48,884 nucleotides of DNA, taken from assembly GCA_016201065.1 (NCBI GenBank), contig JACQDL010000036.1:1-48884 (forward strand), read 5' to 3'. Below are positions 2,343 to 43,892 of this stretch, one piece after another (the first letter of the stretch is position 1; every line of letters starts with the position of its first letter). Source of the stretch: Actinomycetota bacterium. GTDB taxonomy: Bacteria; Actinomycetota; Actinomycetes; Mycobacteriales; JACQDL01. Both the position numbers and the translations under genes were made by a program. The notes under the pieces were generated by a model, which had not been told where the DNA came from, made no database searches, and worked only from the letters and a program-made list of their open reading frames with translations.

Positions 2343-4695
<2,353 letters not shown>

Positions 4696-4706
4696 CGGAC
4701 GTCCCC

Positions 4707-5681
4707 CTACCAGACCTCGCCCTGCGCCCGCAGCATCCGGCGGTAGGCGCTGGCGAAGACGAGCAGCAGGCTGAGGATGAGGACCCCATAGGTCGCCGCT
4801 CGCGCGATCTGGCCGTTGTAGAAGAGGTTGTAGGAGAAGGTGACCAGGATCTGGGTGTAGTCGTTGCTCCTGGTCAGCAGGAAGATCACCGGGAACATGT
4901 TGAACGTCCAGATCACGCCGAGCAGGATCACCGTGGCGCTGACGCTGCGCAGCCCCGGCAGGGTCACGTTGGTGAACTGTTGCCACGCCGAGGCGCCGTC
5001 GACCTCTGCGGCCTCGTACAGCTCCGGCGGGATGGTCTGCATGCCGCCCAGCAGCGCGACCATCATGAACGGCACGCCCAGCCAGACATTCACCGCGATC
5101 ACCGCGACCAGCGCCCAGTTCGACGGGCCGAGCCAGTCGATCGGGTCGAGCCCCACCAGCCCCATCGCCCGGTTGATCATGCCGTCGTTGCCGTTGAACA
5201 GGAACCGCCAGGCGAAGGCGGACACGAACGCCGGCACGGCCCACGGCAGGATCAGCAGGATCCGGTAGACCGACCTGCCGCGCAGCGGCCGGTTGAGCAT
5301 CATGGCCAGCCCCATGCCCAGCGTGTAGTGCAGCAGCACGCAGGAGCCGGTCCAGATCATGGTGCGCACCAGCACGGTCCAGAACGGGGTGCCGCTGCCG
5401 GTGAGGATGTCGAGGTAGTTGCGCACCCCCACGCCGACCGACCGGTCCGGCTGCCCGAACAGCGGGTTGCCGAGGTTGCGCACGGTGGCGTCGGTGAGCG
5501 ACAGCCGGATGCCCTCGATGAGCGGGTAGAGCACCAGCACCACGAGCACCAGGACGACCGGGGCGATCATCGCCCAGGCGTACCAGTGCCGGTCCCAGCT
5601 CCGGCGCAGCCAGCTCCGGCCGCCGCGGCCGGCCGGCCGGTGCAGCACCGCCCGGCTGGCCGGGCTCGTGATGCTGGTCAT
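4707..5681 (-). CDS. Carbohydrate ABC transporter permease, MalF type
   Basis: A 324-aa permease. A basic N-terminus is followed by the first membrane span (about residues 37-57), a periplasmic segment, and further spans with the EAA loop reading PPELYEAAEVDGASAWQQF. This is the usual CUT1 MalF/LacF architecture, without the long P2 loop of enterobacterial MalF. The start ATG 5681 has a GAGGAG site 6 bases upstream. It lies 77 bases behind the binding-protein gene, with a hairpin in the gap, and forms the pore with the MalG-type permease. Confidence 0.9.
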   Translation of the reverse strand: MTSITSPASRAVLHRPAGRGGRSWLRRSWDRHWYAWAMIAPVVLVLVVLVLYPLIEGIRLSLTDATVRNLGNPLFGQPDRSVGVGVRNYLDILTGSGTPFWTVLVRTMIWTGSCVLLHYTLGMGLAMMLNRPLRGRSVYRILLILPWAVPAFVSAFAWRFLFNGNDGMINRAMGLVGLDPIDWLGPSNWALVAVIAVNVWLGVPFMMVALLGGMQTIPPELYEAAEVDGASAWQQFTNVTLPGLRSVSATVILLGVIWTFNMFPVIFLLTRSNDYTQILVTFSYNLFYNGQIARAATYGVLILSLLLVFASAYRRMLRAQGEVW

Positions 5682-10708: not shown

Positions 10709-13330
10709 TCAGCCCTCCCCGAAACAGACGAACGGCGTCAGCGGCCGCGCCTGGGTCGCTTCGGCCAGCGCTCGCGCCGGCCCGGCGCCGGCCACCCGCG
10801 CCCGGTGGAACGCCGTCATCACCGGCACGGCGGCCTCGTCCGGCACCCGGGACACCCCGGCGATCACGGTCGGCGTACCGGTGTAGAGCAGCGCGGCGGT
10901 GAAGCCCAGCAGCTCGTCCCCCGGCCGGACCACCGACCGGCCGACGTCACACGCGGACAGCACGGCCAGCCGCGGCGGCACGGCGAGCTGCTGCACGTCG
11001 TAGGCCATCAGCGGTCCGTCGGCCAGATCCAGCCGGGAGAACAGCACGTTCTCCCGGTCGTGGTGGCCGTGGGTGGCGAGATGGGCGACCGACGCGCCGT
11101 CCAGCAGTCCCGTGACAGCGCCGACCGTGGCCTCGGCACCGACCAGCTGCCGGCCGCCCGGGTAGATCCGGGCGAGCTCGCGGATCTCCGGCGCGGCGTT
11201 CGGCAGCCCCGGCCCGGCGACCAGCACCGCCGGCCCGGGTGGCGACGCCGGCTCGGCCCTGGCGGCGCGGCGGGCGCTCAGCCAGCTCGACGCCGACGGC
11301 ACGACCGAGACCGGCCGACCCGCCAGCGGTGGCAGCAGCCCCCACGGCAGGCTGGCCAACGCCATGGTCGGCGCGAGCACCAGCTCCCCGTCGCCGAGCG
11401 CGGCGGCGACCGGCGCGACGAGGTCACGGGCCAGGGCGTCAAGCTGGCTGGCGAGGGAGCGCATGATCACGCTCTCCATCCGGGCCGGGAGGCGGCGGCC
11501 GGCCAGCGCGTCGAGGTCGGACAGCAGCCGCTGGGTCGACTCCGCCACCGCGGCGTACCCGGCCAGCCGGAACAGCCGGGCCTGCCCGGCGCGGACCACC
11601 AGCGCGATCAGCTGCCCGCGGTGGCTGGCATAGGTGACCATGGCCTTGCCGTCCTGGTCCAGCTCGGTGGCGACCGCGCGCAGGCCGGTGACCGCGCTGC
11701 TCCGCCCGGTGCCGCGCACCTGCCAGCTCCGGGCCCGGATGAGCCGCTCCAGCTCGGCGCACCGGCGCAGCGCCGCGGGCTCCCGCCCGCCGGTCAGCTC
11801 CGCCTGACGGCTCACCCAGCGCAGCTGCCGGAGCTCGGCGAGCGCCTCTGCGACCTGCGGGTCAGGTGGTGGGCGGACCGGGCGGATCCGGAACGCCTGC
11901 GCCCGCGCCCGCTCCACCCAGTCGAACACCAGCCTGGGTGAGCCGGCATCCAGCGCCGCCGCCAGCCCGACCTCGGCCAGCTCCACCCCTAGCGACGCCA
12001 CCCCGACCTGGAGGTCCAGGCTGCCGAACCGGCTGCGGTGCTCCTGCAAGGTCGCGAGCCCGGCCCGGAGCTGGGTGAACGCCGCCGACCGCCGGCCGCC
12101 CGCCAACGCCAACTCGGCCCGGCCGAGCCGGCCGACCAGCCGCAGCTCCAGGGAGTACGTCGGCCGCGCCGGCAGGGTCGCGGCCCGATCGGCGGCCTCA
12201 GCCGGCCGGCCGGCCGCCACCAGGGCGCGGACCGACAGCCAGCCGGCCAGCTCGGCGTCGATCGGGAGGCCGAGGGCCACCAGCCGGTCGGCGAGCTCGG
12301 CGGCGGCCGCCGCCCTGGCCGCTGGCCGCGCCGCGGCGGCACCGGCGGCCGGTCGGGCCGCCGCCGCGCGCAACCGCAGCAGCTCGGCGAGCGCGGCCCA
12401 CGCCTGGTTGCCGCGCCGGAGGAAACGCCGTTGGGCCCGGCCGGCCCAGCGGCGGGCAGCGGCCGGGTCACCGGCCAGCAACGCGGCCACCGCACGGGTG
12501 AGCTCGGCCTCGGCGTGGTCCTGGCTCAGCCGCTGCCGCCGGAACAGCTCCTGCACCCCGTCCAGCTCGGCACCGGCCTCGATCGCGAGCCCGGCGGCCA
12601 GCAGCGCCCGGGCCCGGTCCAGGCGGAGCACCGGCAGGAAGCCCGCACCCCACTGCCGGTAGGCGTCCTCCGCCAGCTCGAAGGCGCTCAGCGCGGCCGG
12701 GATGTCGCCCGCGAGATGGTCGCAGCAACCGAGGTTGTGCAGGGCCTTGGCGGCGACCAGCGGCAGGCCGTGCCGGCCGGCGAGGCGGCGGCAGTGCCCC
12801 AGATCCTCGCGGGCCGGCCCGACCCGGCCGGCGGTCAGGTGCAGCACGGCCCGGTTGAGCAGGGTCCGGGCCAGCACCTCGCAGTGCCGGCCGTGGCCGA
12901 GCAGCGGGACGGCCCGGTCGAAGAGCGCCACCGCCTCAGCGGACCGGCCGGCCCGCATGAGGATGAGGGCCCGTTGCTGGAGCAGCACACCGCGATCGTC
13001 GGCGGTCAGGAGTTCCGCCGCCTCGTCGAGGAGCCGGAGCCCGAACCGGGAGTTGCCCAGCTCCGCCTCGGCGTGCGCGAGGCTGGTCAGCAACCTGCCG
13101 GCCAGCCCGGCGGCGGCGGGGTCGGGTGACCACTGGCCCGCTCCCGGCCGGGCCGCCGGGACGTCTGCCCAGCCCAGCGCGAACAACCCGGTCCGTAGCA
13201 GGCGGGCGCCCCGGGTCGGATGTCCGGCCGCCGTGGCCTGCACTCCGCTGGCGTGGGACTGCCGGGCACGCTCCAGCGAGCCCTTCACGGCCGGCGCCGT
13301 CCGTCTCCCTCGCCGGGCGCCCGAGCTCAC
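10709..13330 (-). CDS. TPR-CHAT protease (caspase-like)
   Basis: An 873-aa cytosolic protein. About residues 30-530 are tandem TPR-like helical repeats, with an alanine-rich linker near 320-345. The C-terminal CHAT domain (about 560-873) has the caspase-fold dyad His754 in HLATHGHH and Cys794 in LSACDVG, and ends in the usual PFVCFG. CHAT proteins are clan CD cysteine peptidases, including separase relatives and the TPR-CHAT protease of type III-E CRISPR systems. It is last in a cassette with the 164-aa protein (4-base gap), a sigma factor and a subtilase. The start is GTG 13330. Both catalytic residues are intact, so I predict an active protease; its trigger and substrate are unknown. Confidence 0.85.
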   Translation of the reverse strand: MSSGARRGRRTAPAVKGSLERARQSHASGVQATAAGHPTRGARLLRTGLFALGWADVPAARPGAGQWSPDPAAAGLAGRLLTSLAHAEAELGNSRFGLRLLDEAAELLTADDRGVLLQQRALILMRAGRSAEAVALFDRAVPLLGHGRHCEVLARTLLNRAVLHLTAGRVGPAREDLGHCRRLAGRHGLPLVAAKALHNLGCCDHLAGDIPAALSAFELAEDAYRQWGAGFLPVLRLDRARALLAAGLAIEAGAELDGVQELFRRQRLSQDHAEAELTRAVAALLAGDPAAARRWAGRAQRRFLRRGNQAWAALAELLRLRAAAARPAAGAAAARPAARAAAAAELADRLVALGLPIDAELAGWLSVRALVAAGRPAEAADRAATLPARPTYSLELRLVGRLGRAELALAGGRRSAAFTQLRAGLATLQEHRSRFGSLDLQVGVASLGVELAEVGLAAALDAGSPRLVFDWVERARAQAFRIRPVRPPPDPQVAEALAELRQLRWVSRQAELTGGREPAALRRCAELERLIRARSWQVRGTGRSSAVTGLRAVATELDQDGKAMVTYASHRGQLIALVVRAGQARLFRLAGYAAVAESTQRLLSDLDALAGRRLPARMESVIMRSLASQLDALARDLVAPVAAALGDGELVLAPTMALASLPWGLLPPLAGRPVSVVPSASSWLSARRAARAEPASPPGPAVLVAGPGLPNAAPEIRELARIYPGGRQLVGAEATVGAVTGLLDGASVAHLATHGHHDRENVLFSRLDLADGPLMAYDVQQLAVPPRLAVLSACDVGRSVVRPGDELLGFTAALLYTGTPTVIAGVSRVPDEAAVPVMTAFHRARVAGAGPARALAEATQARPLTPFVCFGEG

Positions 13331-13334
13331 AACC

Positions 13335-13829
13335 TCACAGTACGACGGACGGCGTCACCACGGCGCGCGCCCGCGCCACCGCACCCACCGGATGGACGAC
13401 CAGCTGGGCCAGACCGCGCGGCGCGCCAGGGATGGCGAACCGGCCGTCGCGGTCGGCCCGGGTGCGGATCAGCCCACGCTCGGTGCGCAGCTCCACGGCG
13501 TGCTCGTCCGGCGGGGCCAGCCAGCCGTCCAGCCGCACGGTGTCCTGGCCGGTCGCGGTGATGCTGACCATCACGGTGAGGCTGGCCCCATCGAAGGTGA
13601 TCGTGCGGGCCTCGTCGGTGCCACGGGTCAGCGCCAGCAGCTCCGTCCTCCCGGCCGGCCGGAGTACCTCGATGTCGAGGTCCTCCAGCGCGATCGCGAA
13701 CAGGACCCGCTCGATGAGGTGCTCGGGCACCGGATCGAGCGCGGCGTACATGTCCCGGATCTCGTCCAGGAGGGCGATGTCGACCCCGTCAAGGGGGGCG
13801 GCCGGGTCGACCGGGTCGTGGCGGGTCAT
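13335..13829 (-). CDS. Cassette protein of unknown function between sigma factor and CHAT protease
   Basis: A 164-aa soluble protein without signal peptide or membrane span. Residues 1-60 are acidic and helical (DIALLDEIRDMYAALDPVPE). The second half looks beta-rich and ends in a carboxypeptidase-regulatory or Ig-like motif (RTRADRDGRFAIPG). The start ATG 13829 shares its first base with the sigma factor stop (TGATG), so translation is coupled, and the CHAT gene follows after 4 bases. The position suggests an adaptor, anti-sigma-like partner or protease substrate. No family is recognised with confidence. Confidence 0.75.
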   Translation of the reverse strand: MTRHDPVDPAAPLDGVDIALLDEIRDMYAALDPVPEHLIERVLFAIALEDLDIEVLRPAGRTELLALTRGTDEARTITFDGASLTVMVSITATGQDTVRLDGWLAPPDEHAVELRTERGLIRTRADRDGRFAIPGAPRGLAQLVVHPVGAVARARAVVTPSVVL

Positions 13830-14476
13830 CAGGAGCTCCAGGTTGGGTCCGTGTCGATCAGGCGGCGGAGCTTGGCCAGGCACCGTCCCCTGGTCGGGCC
13901 GAGACTGCCGTGCGGCATGCCCAGCGCCGCGGAGATCGCGGCGTAGTCCGGCCTGGGGGTGACCGCCACGATCCGCAGGAGCTGCTGGCACCGGACCGGC
14001 AGGGCGCGGACGAGCGCCCACAACCGGTTCCGGCAATCCGCCATGACCACCTCGGTGTCCGGGGTGGGCGCCGGGTCGCACACCCGATCGACCGGCCAGT
14101 CCTCGACGGGGCGCTCGTACCGCCGGGCGCGGGCCGCGCGCCACGCCTCCCGCTTCGTCACGGTGATCAGCCAGCCGGTCAGCGCGGCAGGGGTGTGTAT
14201 CCCGTGCAGGTGCCGCAACAGGGCCAGCCAGGTGGTCTGGACCACATCCTCAGCGGTGTCCCGGTCCAGCCCCTGCGCGCGGGCCACCTGCCACAGCAGC
14301 GGGGTGAGGGTGGACACGATCTCGCCCACGCTGTCCCGGTTTCCGGCCCGCGCCTCCGCCAGCAGGCTGACCAGCCGGGCGCCGTCGATCCCGCCGCCGC
14401 CCGCGGACCGGCCGGCGGCCGGGGTCTCGGTCGCCGGCCGGCCGCCGGTGGCGAGCGGCGCTGGTCCCTGCGACAT
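13829..14476 (-). CDS. ECF-like RNA polymerase sigma factor
   Basis: A 215-aa sigma-70 family protein. A glycine/alanine-rich N-terminal tail (~30 residues) is followed by region 2 (about 45-115, with DRDTAEDVVQTTWLALLRHL) and region 4 (about 150-210, with LPVRCQQLLRIV, DYAAISAALGMPHGSLGPTR). Regions 1 and 3 are missing, as in ECF factors. It lies 9 bases after the subtilase stop and overlaps the next gene by one base. No classical membrane anti-sigma factor is encoded beside it, so control must come from the cassette proteins or elsewhere. Confidence 0.88.
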   Translation of the reverse strand: MSQGPAPLATGGRPATETPAAGRSAGGGGIDGARLVSLLAEARAGNRDSVGEIVSTLTPLLWQVARAQGLDRDTAEDVVQTTWLALLRHLHGIHTPAALTGWLITVTKREAWRAARARRYERPVEDWPVDRVCDPAPTPDTEVVMADCRNRLWALVRALPVRCQQLLRIVAVTPRPDYAAISAALGMPHGSLGPTRGRCLAKLRRLIDTDPTWSS

Positions 14477-14485
14477 CCCGACCGC

Positions 14486-16195
14486 CTACCCGCTCGCCGC
14501 GCGGGTCTCGACGCTGGCGGCCTTCACCGCGCGGGCGGCCCGCGCGACCATCTCGCCGCGCTCGCAGGACTCCAGCGCCGCATCCCCGGAGTCGGCCTGG
14601 ATGATCAACGCCGCGGCGACCCGGGCGGCGACCAGCGGCGCCGCGAAGGACGTGCCGCTCCAGGAGGCGAACCCGCTGGTGAAGTCGTCCGGGTCGATGG
14701 TGTCCCGGCGCTGTGGCCGGCCGGAAAGGTTCGACGCGGCCTCGGTGAAGGCCACCCCCTCGGCGCCACGGACGCTGGTCGGGTAGGTGCTGACCACCGC
14801 CGCACCGCTGGCCCAATGGGTCACCCAGGCCGGGTTGTCGTCGCTGAACAGCGCCTTGCTGCCATTGGGGTTGAGGGCGCCGACGCTGACCACGGGCGGG
14901 CCGTCCCCGACCGGCCGGCCGGCCAGCGCGGCCGGGAAGAACGGGCGGCTGGTCGAGTAGTTGCCGGCCGCGGCGACCACCACGACACCCATCTCGGTGA
15001 GCTGCCGGATCACCCGGGCCAGCTCGGTGGTGTAGGCCTCGTCATCGGGCGACTCGTCGAAGTACCCGAGCGAGAGCGACACCACGTCGACGAGCTCCTC
15101 CGGTGGCACCGCCGCACCGGCCTGTGCCGCCGCCATCCGCGCGGCGATGGTGTACAGCGCGATCAGCAGGTCACCCTCGTACACCACCCCGTCGCTGTGC
15201 ATGATCCGGATGGCGCGGACCTGCGCGTCAGGGGCGACCTGGCGGATGATGCCGGCGATGAACGTGCCATGACCGGCGTGGCTGTCGACGCTGGCCAGCA
15301 GGGTGTCCCGGTCCAGCGGGGTGTCCCAGGAGTCGGTGAGCAGCTCCACCGGCGCGGCACCGGTGGCCCGCACCCACTGCTCGGCCGCCAGCACCGCCTG
15401 CTGGGCCGCCGGGTCGATGCTGACGAAGCCGTCCGGCGGCAGCGGCCCGCCGTACTCCGGGACGTCGAGCCACGGGTGGGTGCCGATCCCCGTGTCCAGC
15501 ACGGCGACCACCGGACGGCGGCGGAACCCGCAGGACTCGAGGGCTCGCCGGGCCGGTGCCGGGAGCACGACGTCGACCGGGGTGCGACCACCCAGCCCCG
15601 GAGCGACGTACGCGGTCCGCCCGGAACTCCCCTCGGTGGCCGGGCTGCCCTCCGTCGCCGGGCTTCCCTCGGTGGCCGGGCTCCCACCGATCCCGCTGAC
15701 CGCGGACCCCACCAGGAGGTGCTCCAGGCCGATCCGAGCCACCACGTGCCCGTCGAGGAGCGACCGCTCGCGGCTCACCTCGGCCCGCAGCTCCTGGAGG
15801 GCGACCCAGGCGTCCACCCGCCCCGGTGCCGCTTCCTCACGCAGCGTCAGCGGAACGGAGCGTGGCAGGCCCCCGATCTGGCCGGCGTACGGCGTGAGAC
15901 CGGCCACGTCCAGTGGCTCCGGCGGCTGGATCCGCAGGCCGATCCGGGCCAGGACCGTGTCGATCACACCCGCCGTCAGCCCGTCCCGCATCAGGTCGTC
16001 AGGCATCAGCAAGGTGCCGGCGCGGTAGGTCGTCTGCCTGGGGGGTGCGGCACCGGGGAGGGTGACCACCTCGTTCGGCTGCAACCGCCGGCCGCCGTGC
16101 CTGGCCAGCGTCGCCGCCGAGATTGGCAGTCCGCCCGGCATGGTCGCCCTCGGCCGACCCTGGCCTCGATCCGACTCCCCGCCATGAACCCGCAT
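14486..16195 (-). CDS. Cytosolic S8 (subtilisin-like) serine peptidase of the sigma/CHAT cassette
   Basis: Up to 569 aa. The S8 triad is complete: Asp234 in VAVLDTGIG, His309 in HAGHGTFIAG, Ser516 in SGTSFAAP, with oxyanion Asn412 in AAAGNYS. There is no signal peptide or membrane span, so it should act in the cytosol, unlike secreted subtilases. About 200 residues precede the catalytic domain and include three copies of GSPATE (171-188) just before it. ATG 16195 gives the full frame; ATG 16141, with GAGGG 5 bases upstream, is an equally good start. It is the first gene of the cassette. Confidence 0.9.
   Translation of the reverse strand: MRVHGGESDRGQGRPRATMPGGLPISAATLARHGGRRLQPNEVVTLPGAAPPRQTTYRAGTLLMPDDLMRDGLTAGVIDTVLARIGLRIQPPEPLDVAGLTPYAGQIGGLPRSVPLTLREEAAPGRVDAWVALQELRAEVSRERSLLDGHVVARIGLEHLLVGSAVSGIGGSPATEGSPATEGSPATEGSSGRTAYVAPGLGGRTPVDVVLPAPARRALESCGFRRRPVVAVLDTGIGTHPWLDVPEYGGPLPPDGFVSIDPAAQQAVLAAEQWVRATGAAPVELLTDSWDTPLDRDTLLASVDSHAGHGTFIAGIIRQVAPDAQVRAIRIMHSDGVVYEGDLLIALYTIAARMAAAQAGAAVPPEELVDVVSLSLGYFDESPDDEAYTTELARVIRQLTEMGVVVVAAAGNYSTSRPFFPAALAGRPVGDGPPVVSVGALNPNGSKALFSDDNPAWVTHWASGAAVVSTYPTSVRGAEGVAFTEAASNLSGRPQRRDTIDPDDFTSGFASWSGTSFAAPLVAARVAAALIIQADSGDAALESCERGEMVARAARAVKAASVETRAASG
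15632..15685 (-). repeat. Three tandem 18-bp repeats in the subtilase gene
   Basis: Three 18-base units each encode Gly-Ser-Pro-Ala-Thr-Glu, in frame, between the N-terminal region and the catalytic domain. Copies differ at a few synonymous positions. Copy-number change would keep the frame and only alter linker length. Confidence 0.8.
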
Positions 16196-16409
16196 GACAT
16201 CCCCATCTCAGGCACCGCGACCGGCCGGACTGGTACACCGGCCCCTACCTACCGGAACGCGATGCGCCCGCTCAGATACAAAGATCGCTCGAATACCGCG
16301 GTCGAAGTATGCGGCGGCGGCGCCCCTCCCGCCGAATCGCCGGGGCGGGGCTGGGCGGGCGGGGCGACAGCTACCCGCACTGGGTGGTGTTCGCGCACCG
16401 AATGCCCCG

Positions 16410-38726: not shown

Positions 38727-38751
38727 CCGGCATCCGGTCAGCGGGACGGGG
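38713..38751. terminator. Perfect 18-bp bidirectional terminator spanning both stop codons
   Basis: CCCCGTCCCGCTGACCGG (38713-38730) pairs perfectly with 38734-38751 across the 3-base loop CAT. The TGA stops of the esterase (38724-38726) and copA (38738-38740) sit symmetrically in the two arms, and both proteins end in Pro-Ser-Arg because of it. Confidence 0.9.
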
Positions 38752-41029
38752 TGAACCCCCGCAACCGGAGGCTGTTGGTCACCACGAACACCGACGAGAA
38801 GGCCATCGCCGCGCCGGCGATCAGCGGGTTGAGCAGCCCCAGCGCGGCCAGCGGGATCGCCGCTACGTTGTAGGCGAAGGCCCAGAACAGGTTTGCCTTG
38901 ATGGTGCCGAGGGTCCGGCGGGACAGCCGGATCGCGTCCACCGCCGCGGTCAGGTCACCGCTGACCAGGGTCAGGTCGCTCGCCTCCATCGCCGCGTCGG
39001 TGCCGGTGCCGAGGGCCAGGCCGAGATCGGCCTGGGCCAACGCCGCCGCGTCGTTGACGCCGTCGCCGACCATGGCCACGACCCGCCCCTCATCCTGGAG
39101 CCGGCGGATCTCGGCGACCTTGCCGGCCGGGAGCACCTCCGCGACGACCTCGGTGGGTGTGAAGCCCACCTCGGCGGCCACCGCGGCCGCGGCACCGGCG
39201 GAGTCCCCCGTGAGCAGCACCGGCCGCAGCCCGAGCTCCCGCAGCCGCCGGACCGCCGCCGCGCTGCTGGGCTTGACCTCGTCCCCGACCACGAGGGCGC
39301 CGCGGACCGTGCCGTCGACGGTCAGCACCGCGACGGTCCGCCCGGCGAGCTCGGCCGCCCGCACCGCGGCCGACACCTCGGGCGGCAGGACCTCGCCGGT
39401 AGCCCGGCCGACCCGCACCCGCTGCCCGTCGACGGTGCCGGTGACGCCGAGCCCGGCCTCCGCGTGGAAGCCCGTGACCGCGGGCAGCTCGCCGTACCGC
39501 TGGGTGGCCGCCGCCGCGATGGCCCGGCCGATCGGGTGCTCGCTGCCGGCCTCCACCGCTCCGGCGAGGCGCAGCACGTCCGGCGCGCCGTGCACCTCGT
39601 GCAGCACCATCACGCCGGTCGTCACGGTCCCGGTCTTGTCCAGCACGATGGTGTCCACCGTCCGGGTGGACTCCAGCACCTCCGGACCGCGGATGAGGAT
39701 GCCCAGCTGGGCTCCCCGCCCGGTGCCGACGAGCAGCGCCGTCGGCGTGGCGAGGCCGAGCGCACAGGGACAGGCGATGATGAGCACGGCCACGGCGGCG
39801 GTGAACGCCGCCGGGGCGTCGTGGGTGACCAGCAGCCAGCTGAGCAAGGTCACCAGGGACAGGCCGATCACCACCGGCACGAACACGCCGGCCACCCGGT
39901 CCGCCAGCCGCTGCACGGGTGCCTTGCCGGCCTGTGCCTGCTCCACCAGCCGGGTGATCTGGGCGAGCGCGGTGTCCGCGCCGACCCGGTCCGCCCGCAC
40001 CACCAGCCGGCCACCGGCGTTCAGGCAGCCACCGACCACCGGGTCGCCGACGCCGACCTCGACCGGGATCGGCTCCCCGGTCAGCAGCGAGGTGTCCACC
40101 GCGGACTGCCCCTCGATGACCGTCCCGTCGGTGGCGATCTTCTCCCCCGGCCGGACCAGGAACACCGCACCGACCCGCAGCAGCCCCACCGGCACGGTGC
40201 GCTCCCGGCCGTCCTCCAGCACGGTGGCCTCGCGGGCACCGAGCTCGGCCAGCGCGCGCAGCGCCGCGCCCGCCCGCCACTTGGCCCGGCCCTCCGCGTA
40301 CCGGCCGGCCAGGATGAACACGGTGACCGCGCTCGCCACCTCAAGGTAGATCTCGCGGCTGCCGCTGCCGCGCGGCGGCAGCAACGACAGCGCCATCCGC
40401 ATGCCCGGCTGTCCGGCGTCGCCGAGGAACAGGGCGTAGAGAGACCACAGGAACGCCGCCGTGACGCCGAGCGAGATCAGGGTGTCCATGGTCGCGGCGC
40501 CGTGCCGGGCGTTGCGCAGCGCCGCCCGGTGCAGCGGCCAGGCACCCCACACGGCGACCGGGCTGGCCAGGGTGAGGGCGAGCCACTGCCAGCTGGTGAA
40601 CTGCGCCGCCGGGACCATGGAGAGGACGAGTACCGGCGCCGTCAGTGCGGCACTGACCAGCAGCCGCTGCCGCTGCGCGGCCAGCCCGTCGTCACCGCTG
40701 CCGGCGTCGGCGGGGGGCGAGCTGCCGGCGTCGGCGGTCTCGACCGGCGCGGCCACCGGCGGGGGTGGCAGCGTCGCCGTGTAGCCGGCCGCCTCCACCG
40801 CCCGGACCAGCTCGCCGGTGTCGATCGCGGAGGGGTCGAACCGCACGCTGGCCCGCTGCACGGCGTAGTTCACCGACGCCTGCACCCCCACCAGCTTGTT
40901 CAGCTTGCGTTCGACCCGGGTGGCGCAGGAGGCGCAGGTCATCCCGCCGATGTTCAGCTCGACCCGAACACCCTGGTCACCAACGCCCGGGTCACCAACA
41001 CCCGGGTCGGCGAGCGGCGACGACGTCAT
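38738..41029 (-). CDS. copA: Copper-translocating P-type ATPase
   Basis: A 763-aa P1B-type ATPase exporting Cu(I) from the cytosol. One N-terminal heavy-metal domain has CxxC at C32/C35 (GMTCASC). Membrane metal site is CPC at 420-422, phosphorylated Asp464 lies in DKTGT, and the ATP-binding SEHPIGRAI and hinge GDGVNDA follow. The first 20 residues hold a small [10 protein letters not shown] repeat. ATG 41029 overlaps the copZ stop by four bases. The copZ-copA pair sits behind csoR on the same strand and is probably induced by copper through CsoR. Confidence 0.96.
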
Positions 41030-41244
41030 GCTCCGACCGGATCGGCGGCGTAGCCAGCCTCCTCGACGGCGGCCAGCACCTCCAGGTCGTCCCACGCCTC
41101 CCCGGTCACGACCATCGCGCCGGAGGCGAGGTCGACATCCACCGAGGCGACCCCAGGCACCGTACTGACCTCCTCGGTCACCGAGGAAACGCAGTGACCG
41201 CAGGTCATTCCGGTCACGGTGTAGCGACGGCTGTTCATCCTCAC
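41026..41244 (-). CDS. copZ: Copper chaperone, heavy-metal-associated domain
   Basis: A 72-aa single-domain HMA protein with the metal site GMTCGHC and the usual beta-alpha-beta pattern ([12 protein letters not shown]). It carries Cu(I) to CopA. The start is GTG 41244 with GGGAG 4 bases upstream, or ATG 41238. Eight bases separate it from csoR. Confidence 0.93.
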
Positions 41245-41252
41245 CCAACTCC

Positions 41253-41531
41253 CTAGGAACGGACGAGGCGCGCGATCGCCGCGGAGGCCTCCTCGATCTT
41301 CTCGTCGGCACCCTGGCCGGTCGCGATGGCCTCTCGCACGCAGTGCGCCAGATGCTCATCGAGCAACGCCAGCGCGACCGCTTGCAGCGCCTTGGTGGCG
41401 GCTGAGACCTGGGTGATCACGTCGATGCAGTACACATCGTCCTCGACCATCCGCTGCAGGCCGCGCACCTGCCCCTCGATCCGGCGGAGCCGGGCCAGGA
41501 CGGCAGGTTTCGTCTCGGCGTAGCCAACCAT
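41253..41531 (-). CDS. csoR: Copper-sensing repressor CsoR
   Basis: A 92-aa all-helical repressor of the CsoR/RcnR family. The Cu(I)-binding triad is complete: Cys35 in DDVYCIDVI, and His60 and Cys64 in DEHLAHC. It begins [13 protein letters not shown], the DNA-binding helix signature. It is the first gene of the csoR-copZ-copA operon with its operator just upstream, so it should repress the operon until copper binds. Confidence 0.95.
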
Positions 41532-42864: not shown

Positions 42865-42908
42865 GCCGGTGGTCAGCAGGGCCGCGCCCGGTAGGGCCGG
42901 TGGTCAGC
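42855..42908. repeat. Direct repeat at converging gene ends
   Basis: Two near-identical copies, 42855-42877 and 42885-42908, differ by one inserted G (unit begins CGCCCGGTAGG). The first includes the stop of the 67-aa gene; the second includes the stop of the lipoprotein gene. Probably a local duplication. Confidence 0.7.
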
Positions 42909-43818
42909 GCAGGCCCGGTACGGCGGCGAGCCGGAGCATGTCCGCGCGAAGAGCGTCCAGCCTGCCGCGCAACCGGGACCGGTCCGCTGCCGTCAGGTCG
43001 CCCACCGGCCGGTACCCACCGCCCGCGACCCGCTGGACGGAAACCCCGCTGGTCGCCGCGTCGAAGTCCCGCAGCAGGACCGCGACCAGCGTGGGATCTG
43101 CGGCCGCCACCACCGGGGTGAGCGCCCGGAACACGGCCTGGGCACCGTCGAGACCGGCCGCGAGATCCGCCAGGTCGGTGTGCGAGTACGGCTCCGCCAT
43201 GCCGGCCAGCGTGCGCGTCGCCATCGTCTCGACCGCGCCGCGGGCGCCGAGCACCAGCCCGCCGGGGGTCAGCGGCACGGTGGCCAGCCGGGCGGCCAGC
43301 GTGGCCAGGTCGGCGTCGAGCTGGTCGGCGTACGGGCGGGCGGCGGCGGTGCTGCCGGTGACCCACAGCAGGTACTCCAGCCGGTGCCAGCCGGTGAACG
43401 CCGGATCAGCCGGGCCGGAGTGGGCGGTGGCGAGACCATCGACCCGCGCCGTGATGTCCCTGACCGCGCCGGTGACCGGGCTCAGCCGCCCCCAGTGGAC
43501 CCGGCTCGGCGAATACCGGGCCCTCGCCTTGGCCAGGTCACCGGCGCGCACCGCGGCGGTGAAGGCCGAGGTGCCGGTGCGCAGCGCGGCTACCTCGGCG
43601 AGCAGGTAGCTCCGGTAGGAGTCCACGGCCGCGCGGAGCTGCCGATCCTTGCCCGGGGTGCCCGGATGCTCCTCGGCCAGCGCCTCGGCGCCCGAGGTGG
43701 TTGACGTCGTCCCCGGCGAGCTGGTCGTGGTGGCGGCCGCGCCGCTCCCGGATGAGCCGCAGCCCGCGGCCAGCCCGAGCGCGAGCACACCGGTCACCGT
43801 GCGCACCAGTCGGCGCAT
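42904..43818 (-). CDS. EfeO/imelysin-type iron-uptake lipoprotein
   Basis: A 304-aa lipoprotein with lipobox LAAGC (Cys20) and a Ser/Thr/Gly-rich linker. A helical M75/imelysin-type domain with the conserved HxxE motif in GWHRLEYLLW follows. EfeO-type proteins bind ferrous iron outside the cell for EfeU permeases. No efeB or canonical efeU is nearby, but the FTR1-like membrane protein is two genes away, converging. The start ATG 43818 has a G-rich site; ATG 43830 is an alternative. Confidence 0.82.
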   Translation of the reverse strand: MRRLVRTVTGVLALGLAAGCGSSGSGAAATTTSSPGTTSTTSGAEALAEEHPGTPGKDRQLRAAVDSYRSYLLAEVAALRTGTSAFTAAVRAGDLAKARARYSPSRVHWGRLSPVTGAVRDITARVDGLATAHSGPADPAFTGWHRLEYLLWVTGSTAAARPYADQLDADLATLAARLATVPLTPGGLVLGARGAVETMATRTLAGMAEPYSHTDLADLAAGLDGAQAVFRALTPVVAAADPTLVAVLLRDFDAATSGVSVQRVAGGGYRPVGDLTAADRSRLRGRLDALRADMLRLAAVPGLR

Positions 43819-43892
43819 TGCCCCCACCATCCCCACCCGAACCGACCGCACCGGTCGACCCACCGTGACGGGCCGCTGTTAGCGTTGCCCGC

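Follow-up and report, generated by a model that had tools for sequence, protein, structure and literature searches.

What do four tightly packed genes that encode a subtilase, an ECF-type sigma factor, a protein of 164 amino acids (P3), and a TPR-CHAT protease do for an actinobacterium? These genes lie in a 48,884-nucleotide stretch of DNA from an Actinomycetota bacterium (contig JACQDL010000036.1; we refer to the whole stretch that was analyzed as the window). The original prediction was that they form a protease-gated transcription switch similar to the Csx29/Csx30 pair of type III-E CRISPR systems.

A conserved chromosomal cassette

All four open reading frames are on the minus strand, in the order subtilase, sigma factor, P3, and TPR-CHAT protease, with gaps of 9, -1, and 4 nt. 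The subtilase (family S8; 14486..16195; 569 amino acids) matches Peptidase_S8 from Pfam (PF00082; 4.8e-23). Its catalytic triad is Asp234 (15496-15494), His309 (15271-15269), and Ser516 (14650-14648), and these residues and Asn412 are invariant in 29/29 aligned relatives. The sigma factor (13829..14476; 215 amino acids) matches Sigma70_r2 (PF04542, sigma2; 1e-9) and is above the cut-off for the ECF superfamily (TIGR02937; 47.7 bits, cut-off 42.9). For P3 (13335..13829), the sole Pfam match is a weak one to CarboxypepD_reg (0.019). The TPR-CHAT protein (10709..13330; 873 amino acids, with a GTG start) matches CHAT (1.1e-32) and TPR_12 (2.3e-8). It has a TPR solenoid at about residues 71-480 and a CHAT domain at residues 630-860 (11443-10751), whose dyad of His754 (11071-11069) and Cys794 (10951-10949) is invariant in 37/37 aligned relatives. 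We saw no N-terminal hydrophobic segment in any of the four proteins. The coordinates, gaps, and catalytic residues given in the original prediction all check, and so does its statement that neither protease has a signal peptide.

These four genes are a conserved unit. A close relative of the CHAT protein is present in 28/61 genomes of the order, and when we ran profiles on the DNA flanking CHAT genes from the order, all four families were present at 21 of the 35 loci. Starting instead from P3 across the class, we found all four families at 51/80 loci, CHAT with P3 and the sigma factor at another 10/80, and the sigma factor and P3 only at 16/80. Because all four families recur at so many of the CHAT-seeded and P3-seeded loci, the arrangement is far beyond chance, and the cassette is a single unit that is conserved within Actinomycetota. 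P3 is present in 130 of the 395 genomes that we sampled from the class (about a third) and is also found in other classes of the phylum.

Within the cassette, the sigma factor and P3 are closely associated. In 148/153 cases, the P3 gene directly follows the sigma gene in the same orientation, with a median gap of about 3 nt, and at one locus (L057) the two are fused in a single open reading frame. Because of this obligate adjacency and the natural fusion, we infer that P3 is a regulator that binds the sigma factor.

P3 and CHAT appear to be an obligate genome-wide pair even when they are unlinked. Where P3 is present without CHAT at its locus, a CHAT protein of this family is encoded elsewhere in the genome in 15/15 cases (excluding G305, which is a 75%-complete genome), compared with 0/16 genomes that lack P3. 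(The Fisher p-value of 3e-9 ignores relatedness, and because the loci are phylogenetically related, such p-values are too small.) The distant CHAT gene is adjoined by a subtilase gene in 14/14 readable cases. Conversely, all 28 of the genomes in which the CHAT locus lacks P3 encode P3 elsewhere. The original prediction had expected the four genes to be conserved together, and they are, both locally (51/80 P3-seeded loci) and genome-wide (15/15 and 28/28).

There are variations on this arrangement. At two loci (L037 and L040), the subtilase and CHAT genes are both tandemly duplicated around a single sigma-P3 pair. In Lentzea (L115-L136), the CHAT gene is in a fixed context beside genes for an amidase and a secreted M14 carboxypeptidase, and the sigma-P3 pair is located elsewhere, in two or more copies. 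The genome that the window comes from contains a second cassette (L032; contig C16, about 61-66 kb) with the sigma factor, P3, and CHAT but no subtilase. In this second cassette, a gene for a LuxR-type regulator lies between P3 and CHAT; the regulator is also found in L044, L048, L178, and L183.

The setting of the cassette is chromosomal. Many of the loci, in several families, are between sepH (DUF3071) and a pair of genes encoding a phosphodiesterase and DUF5998. Among 72,556 plasmids we found essentially no homologs of CHAT; there was one record of 11.85 Mb, whose size suggests that it is a chromosome. In 50,697 phages there was one short metagenomic match, and tblastn with distant-family P3 gave no hits on plasmids. 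When we ran PADLOC on the window, it identified no defense family beyond weak matches of the subtilase to IetS (21 bits). The neighbors in the window are ordinary genes (a LacI regulator, a MalK-type ATPase, a two-component kinase, and complex I-like genes). The window also contains genes for a heavy-metal P-type ATPase (38738-41359) and an imelysin-like Peptidase_M75 (42904-43863).

The cassette is chromosomal and old. Because of the chromosomal site, the near-absence from plasmids and phages, the weak PADLOC matches, and the ordinary neighbors, a role in mobile phage defense is not supported, which goes against the phage response in the original prediction insofar as it was part of a mobile defense system. 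One might still see the cassette as a dedicated anti-phage system, or a stand-alone Craspase-like defense, since circuits of CHAT, a sigma factor, and an anti-sigma factor serve immunity in type III-E CRISPR (PMC10028731) and the CalpL-CalpT-CalpS system is analogous (PMC11229360). Given that the loci are chromosomal, are often at one conserved site, have no clear homologs on plasmids or in phages, and match only IetS (weakly) in PADLOC, we consider this very improbable. An immune role of another kind is possible.

P3 and its invariant arginine

We examined the predicted structure of P3. The AF2 model (pLDDT 84.9) has a helical hairpin at residues 15-59 (13787-13653; helices 15-31 and 36-59), a flexible and disordered linker at residues 60-73, and a seven-stranded beta-sandwich at residues 74-164 (13610-13338). 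The pLDDT is below 50 over residues 56-70. Foldseek found no match to P3 below E = 0.001. With the beta domain only, VIA-align found a resemblance to the CrdA, CBM56, and FnIII folds (Z of about 7-9), which is a common fold. CarboxypepD_reg matches at E ≤ 1 in 15/27 members of the P3 family, with a best value of 1.3e-5. We found no similarity between the sequence of P3 and Csx30 or any known anti-sigma domain.

The linker contains one of the least variable residues in the family. Arg69 (codon 13623..13625, minus strand) is conserved in 126/126 non-redundant homologs, if we allow a 2-residue misalignment in the two apparent exceptions, whose arginine is two alignment columns away. Its entropy is 0.13, while most of its neighbors in the linker are at about 1.7-3.3, and the spacing on either side of it is not fixed (for nearly all homologs, 9-20 residues on one side and 9-16 on the other). 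The residue after it is Ser, Gly, Ala, or Thr in 120/124 homologs, and the motif can be summarized as [VLIT]-R-[SGA]. True P3 homologs from other classes, which were not used in finding the site, also retain the arginine. That one arginine stays fixed in a floppy loop whose length varies suggests that it belongs to a recognition site, and Arg69 is a candidate for the P1 residue of a cleavage site. It might instead serve in sigma binding or in a structural contact.

The predicted structure of the TPR-CHAT protein would fit with cleavage after arginine. Like Csx29, it has a TPR and CHAT fold with a His/Cys dyad, and Csx29 is the best fold match for the AF2 model (pLDDT 88; Z = 29.5 over 515 residues). 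However, it scores just 13.8 bits against the curated model for Csx29 (NF041237), whose cut-off is 300. The best non-CRISPR match is separase (5fc2_B; Z = 27.0, 2.8 Å over 304 residues), and gingipain R is similar as well (Z = 20.5). Separase is a eukaryotic cohesin protease without a sigma factor context, which distinguishes it from the cassette's protease, but its cleavage is arginine-specific, which fits the conserved Arg69; an arginine at P1 suits the separase/gingipain side of clan CD. Because of the conserved arginine in a variable loop, the obligate pairing of P3 and CHAT, and the separase- and gingipain-like fold, we predict that CHAT cuts P3 after Arg69.

We also considered that P3 could be a positive cofactor or a ligand sensor of the sigma factor, with the sandwich as the sensor and with proteolysis ending the response. 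The beta-sandwich does resemble binding domains (CrdA, CBM56, and FnIII), and adjacency to the sigma factor fits any partner role. However, this scenario explains less directly why there is an arginine in a loop of variable length and why P3 is obligately paired with CHAT, and it seems to us quite improbable. An analysis of covariation between paired sigma factors and P3 proteins (mean-field DCA; 121 pairs, Neff 101) was noisy and clade-driven, with its top couplings scattered over both proteins.

The promoter motif and the probable output protease

Searching for dyads upstream of the operons yielded TGTATC, about 17 nt, and CTCCT, which is laid out as in ECF promoters. A position weight matrix built from 61 sites had 189 matches in 195 loci and 8 in shuffled loci. 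The window has a single strong match (18.8, at 16280 on the minus strand; the next best is 12.6). This predicted operon promoter (16253..16280, minus strand) has a -35 element of TGTATC (16280-16275), a 17-nt spacer, and a -10 element of TTCCG (16257-16253), and it lies before the subtilase gene, about 80 nt upstream of its ATG (16195). The pattern of the window's promoter occurs 4 times in the whole genome, compared with 2 for the control.

The motif is found before some types of transcription units and not others. It precedes 60/99 sigma-first units and 31/67 subtilase-first units whose locus includes P3; some of the units in each of these two groups served for training. It also precedes 17/18 subtilase-first units without P3 at the locus, which were outside the training set and are mostly from one genus. 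In contrast, it precedes none of the 68 CHAT-first units; the rate in random windows is 6/300. A recognizable motif is absent from the remaining units (36/67 subtilase-first and 39/99 sigma-first), perhaps because the motif has diverged. The strict consensus is found in 28/130 genomes with P3 and in 5/265 genomes without it, and in the genomes with P3, 24 of the 35 matches are within 10 kb of P3. From these patterns, we infer that TGTATC-N17-CTCCT is the promoter of the cassette's own sigma factor. Given how the motif is distributed across transcription units, the targets of the sigma factor very likely include its own gene and the subtilase gene and exclude a CHAT gene that stands by itself.

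The subtilase is therefore the predicted sigma-induced output protease. It is not close to the curated subtilase families that we checked: it scores 16.8 bits against IetS (NF042956; cut-off 900) and 63.2 bits against the T7SS mycosins (TIGR03921; cut-off 278.75), and it lacks a hydrophobic N-terminus. The original prediction had suggested that one protease activates the other. We looked for a conserved site at which CHAT might activate the subtilase, and among 29 relatives, no residue N-terminal to Asp234, upstream of the catalytic domain, is conserved at the 88% level, so that idea is not supported.

Where the subtilase is missing, the motif precedes genes for other proteases: a papain-family protease (Peptidase_C1) in 7 Amycolatopsis/Prauserella-type loci and a trypsin-like protease in 4 Cellulomonas loci. 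Because these genes take the place of the subtilase behind the motif, the output protease appears to be exchangeable (subtilase, papain-like, or trypsin-like). Papain-type enzymes favor a hydrophobic P2 and a basic P1, and trypsin-type enzymes favor a basic P1, so Val-Arg before a small residue suits both. It is conceivable, then, that the output protease cuts P3 after Arg69, which would give positive feedback, and that CHAT acts elsewhere. But Arg69 is retained with any of the three unrelated output proteases, and the constant partner of P3 is CHAT. We think this scenario is rather unlikely and that CHAT is the better candidate for cutting P3.

Several other genes and sites near the cassettes also have the motif. 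LuxR/STAND-type regulators with a sigma motif adjoin the cassette in L211, L213-L215, L220, and L221 (cluster c79) and in L061 and L240. A gene for a HopA1-family protein with a sigma motif is beside the cassette in L141 (5915-4980) and L190 (4898-3966), and a strong motif in L218 precedes a 993-amino-acid orphan protein (2377-5358) with no Pfam match. Also, a strong motif lies immediately past the 3' end of CHAT, in an antisense or downstream position, in L032 (10150-10520; C16:66476-66502 of the source genome, minus strand), and similar motifs are found in L055 (9967-), L050 (6916+), L239 (3172-), and L234 (3384-). These have no obvious open reading frame behind them but do have hairpin-forming sequence, and might drive a sigma-dependent small RNA. 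In a search with Rfam, these presumed small RNAs had no match, and tRNAs were all that was found.

Relationship to known switches

The cassette itself is not new, because its gene context matches that of a catalogued group of sigma factors, ECF54 (Huang 2015; Casas-Pastor 2021, as summarized in PMC8999054), for which a subtilase, a CHAT protein, and a "carboxypeptidase" were described in the gene context and proteolytic control was proposed (PMC8999054). The shared features are an actinobacterial ECF sigma factor with CHAT, subtilase, and carboxypeptidase(-regulatory) neighbors, which are present both in the window and at 51/80 P3-seeded loci; membership in ECF54 is assigned from this gene context and not from the ECF54 HMM. 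Because CarboxypepD_reg matches 15/27 P3 members, the "carboxypeptidase" near ECF54 genes is most likely the CarboxypepD_reg-like P3. In our analysis, P3 is instead a non-enzymatic sandwich with a helical arm and a candidate for a cleaved regulator of the sigma factor.

The published view of ECF54, which was derived from gene context, has the opposite sign: the proteases keep the sigma factor off by degrading it, and there is no anti-sigma factor (PMC8999054). Under such a scheme, the subtilase and CHAT would keep breaking the sigma factor down until some signal stopped them, and P3 might be an adaptor or a chaperone. However, the subtilase gene has the sigma promoter at a rate far above background, which would make the scheme a plain negative feedback loop. 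Also, it is P3 that has the conserved site resembling a cleavage site, with none noted in the sigma factor; P3 is a hairpin and a beta-sandwich, not a peptidase; and the invariant neighbor of the sigma factor is P3, not the subtilase. We therefore view proteolysis as an off-switch as unlikely.

Instead, we propose that proteolysis turns the sigma factor on. The TPR-CHAT protein would be a standing sensor and trigger protease, and the promoter analysis supports the view that, when free-standing, it is not a target of the sigma factor. P3 would bind the ECF sigma factor via its N-terminal helical region and hold it inactive. Once activated, CHAT would cut P3 after Arg69 in the linker, which would part the helical region from the beta-sandwich and free or activate the sigma factor. 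The sigma factor would then drive its own operon from TGTATC-N17-CTCCT, as the promoter statistics suggest, and produce more subtilase, sigma factor, P3, and (in the window) CHAT. The cytosolic subtilase would be the output, with a papain- or trypsin-like protease in its place in some lineages. On balance we lean, by a little, towards this whole circuit of a CHAT trigger, a cleavable P3, a sigma amplifier, and a subtilase output being correct, and towards its being a CRISPR-free relative, in design, of Csx29-Csx30-sigma. The protease-gated sigma switch of the original prediction thus survives as the best reading, given a CHAT fold nearest to Csx29, a P3 tied to the sigma factor, and a candidate cleavage site, but without support for activation of one protease by the other or for mobile phage defense.

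In type III-E systems, Csx29 cleaves Csx30, and an ECF sigma factor is thereby relieved of its inhibition (PMC10028731). The cassette shares with this Craspase/CASP system (Csx29, Csx30, and CASP-sigma) the TPR-CHAT fold, an ECF sigma factor, a partner protein between them, and probably the logic of cutting a sigma inhibitor. It differs in that we noticed no Cas7-11 or CRISPR among the window genes that we scanned, and in that Csx30 is 565 amino acids long and not detectably similar to P3. (A P3 profile matched no Csx30 chain among PDB sequences.) Also, the cassette is predicted to add an extra, sigma-driven protease. DdvA-DdvS of Myxococcus xanthus (8rot, 8rw5) is another case of a CHAT-domain protein in the control of an ECF sigma factor, and the TPR-CHAT protein resembles DdvA in sequence (E = 2.3e-10) and fold (Z = 21.3). 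However, DdvA is described in the PDB titles as a transmembrane anti-sigma factor, whereas the CHAT protein in the window is soluble and P3 is separate.

Two other type III CRISPR systems are more distant. The CalpL protease cleaves the anti-sigma factor CalpT and releases the sigma factor CalpS (PMC11229360), but CalpL is a SAVED-Lon protease with a cyclic-nucleotide trigger, and its family is unrelated to the cassette's proteases. In type III-B SAVED-CHAT systems, a CHAT protease heads a proteolytic cascade (PMC11229360). There, the sensor is SAVED and the trigger is a cyclic oligonucleotide, while in the cassette the sensor would be the TPR region and the second protease is apparently linked by transcription.

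Beyond the gene context, several features appear to be new: P3 as the partner, its Arg69 site, its obligate pairing with CHAT, the promoter, and an output protease that can be exchanged. We did not find them in the literature that we searched, in which ECF54 was covered by the summary in PMC8999054. More broadly, we tentatively suggest, as an idea that may well be wrong, a widespread chromosomal and CRISPR-independent separase-like switch, in which CHAT cuts the P3 anti-sigma factor after a conserved arginine, the freed sigma factor induces an exchangeable executioner protease, and Craspase is a recruited version. With P3 in 130/395 genomes, the cassette may rank among the most common switches of transcription that are gated by a protease in actinobacteria. 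It points to a precise candidate cleavage site (Arg69 of P3), a precise promoter sequence (TGTATC-N17-CTCCT), and a predicted output protease. If our proposal is true, then the published view of ECF54, with no anti-sigma factor and with proteolysis as the off-switch, would be revised; the cassette would be a stand-alone counterpart, and possibly the source, of the CRISPR Craspase circuit; and there would be a separase-like protease outside of eukaryotes.
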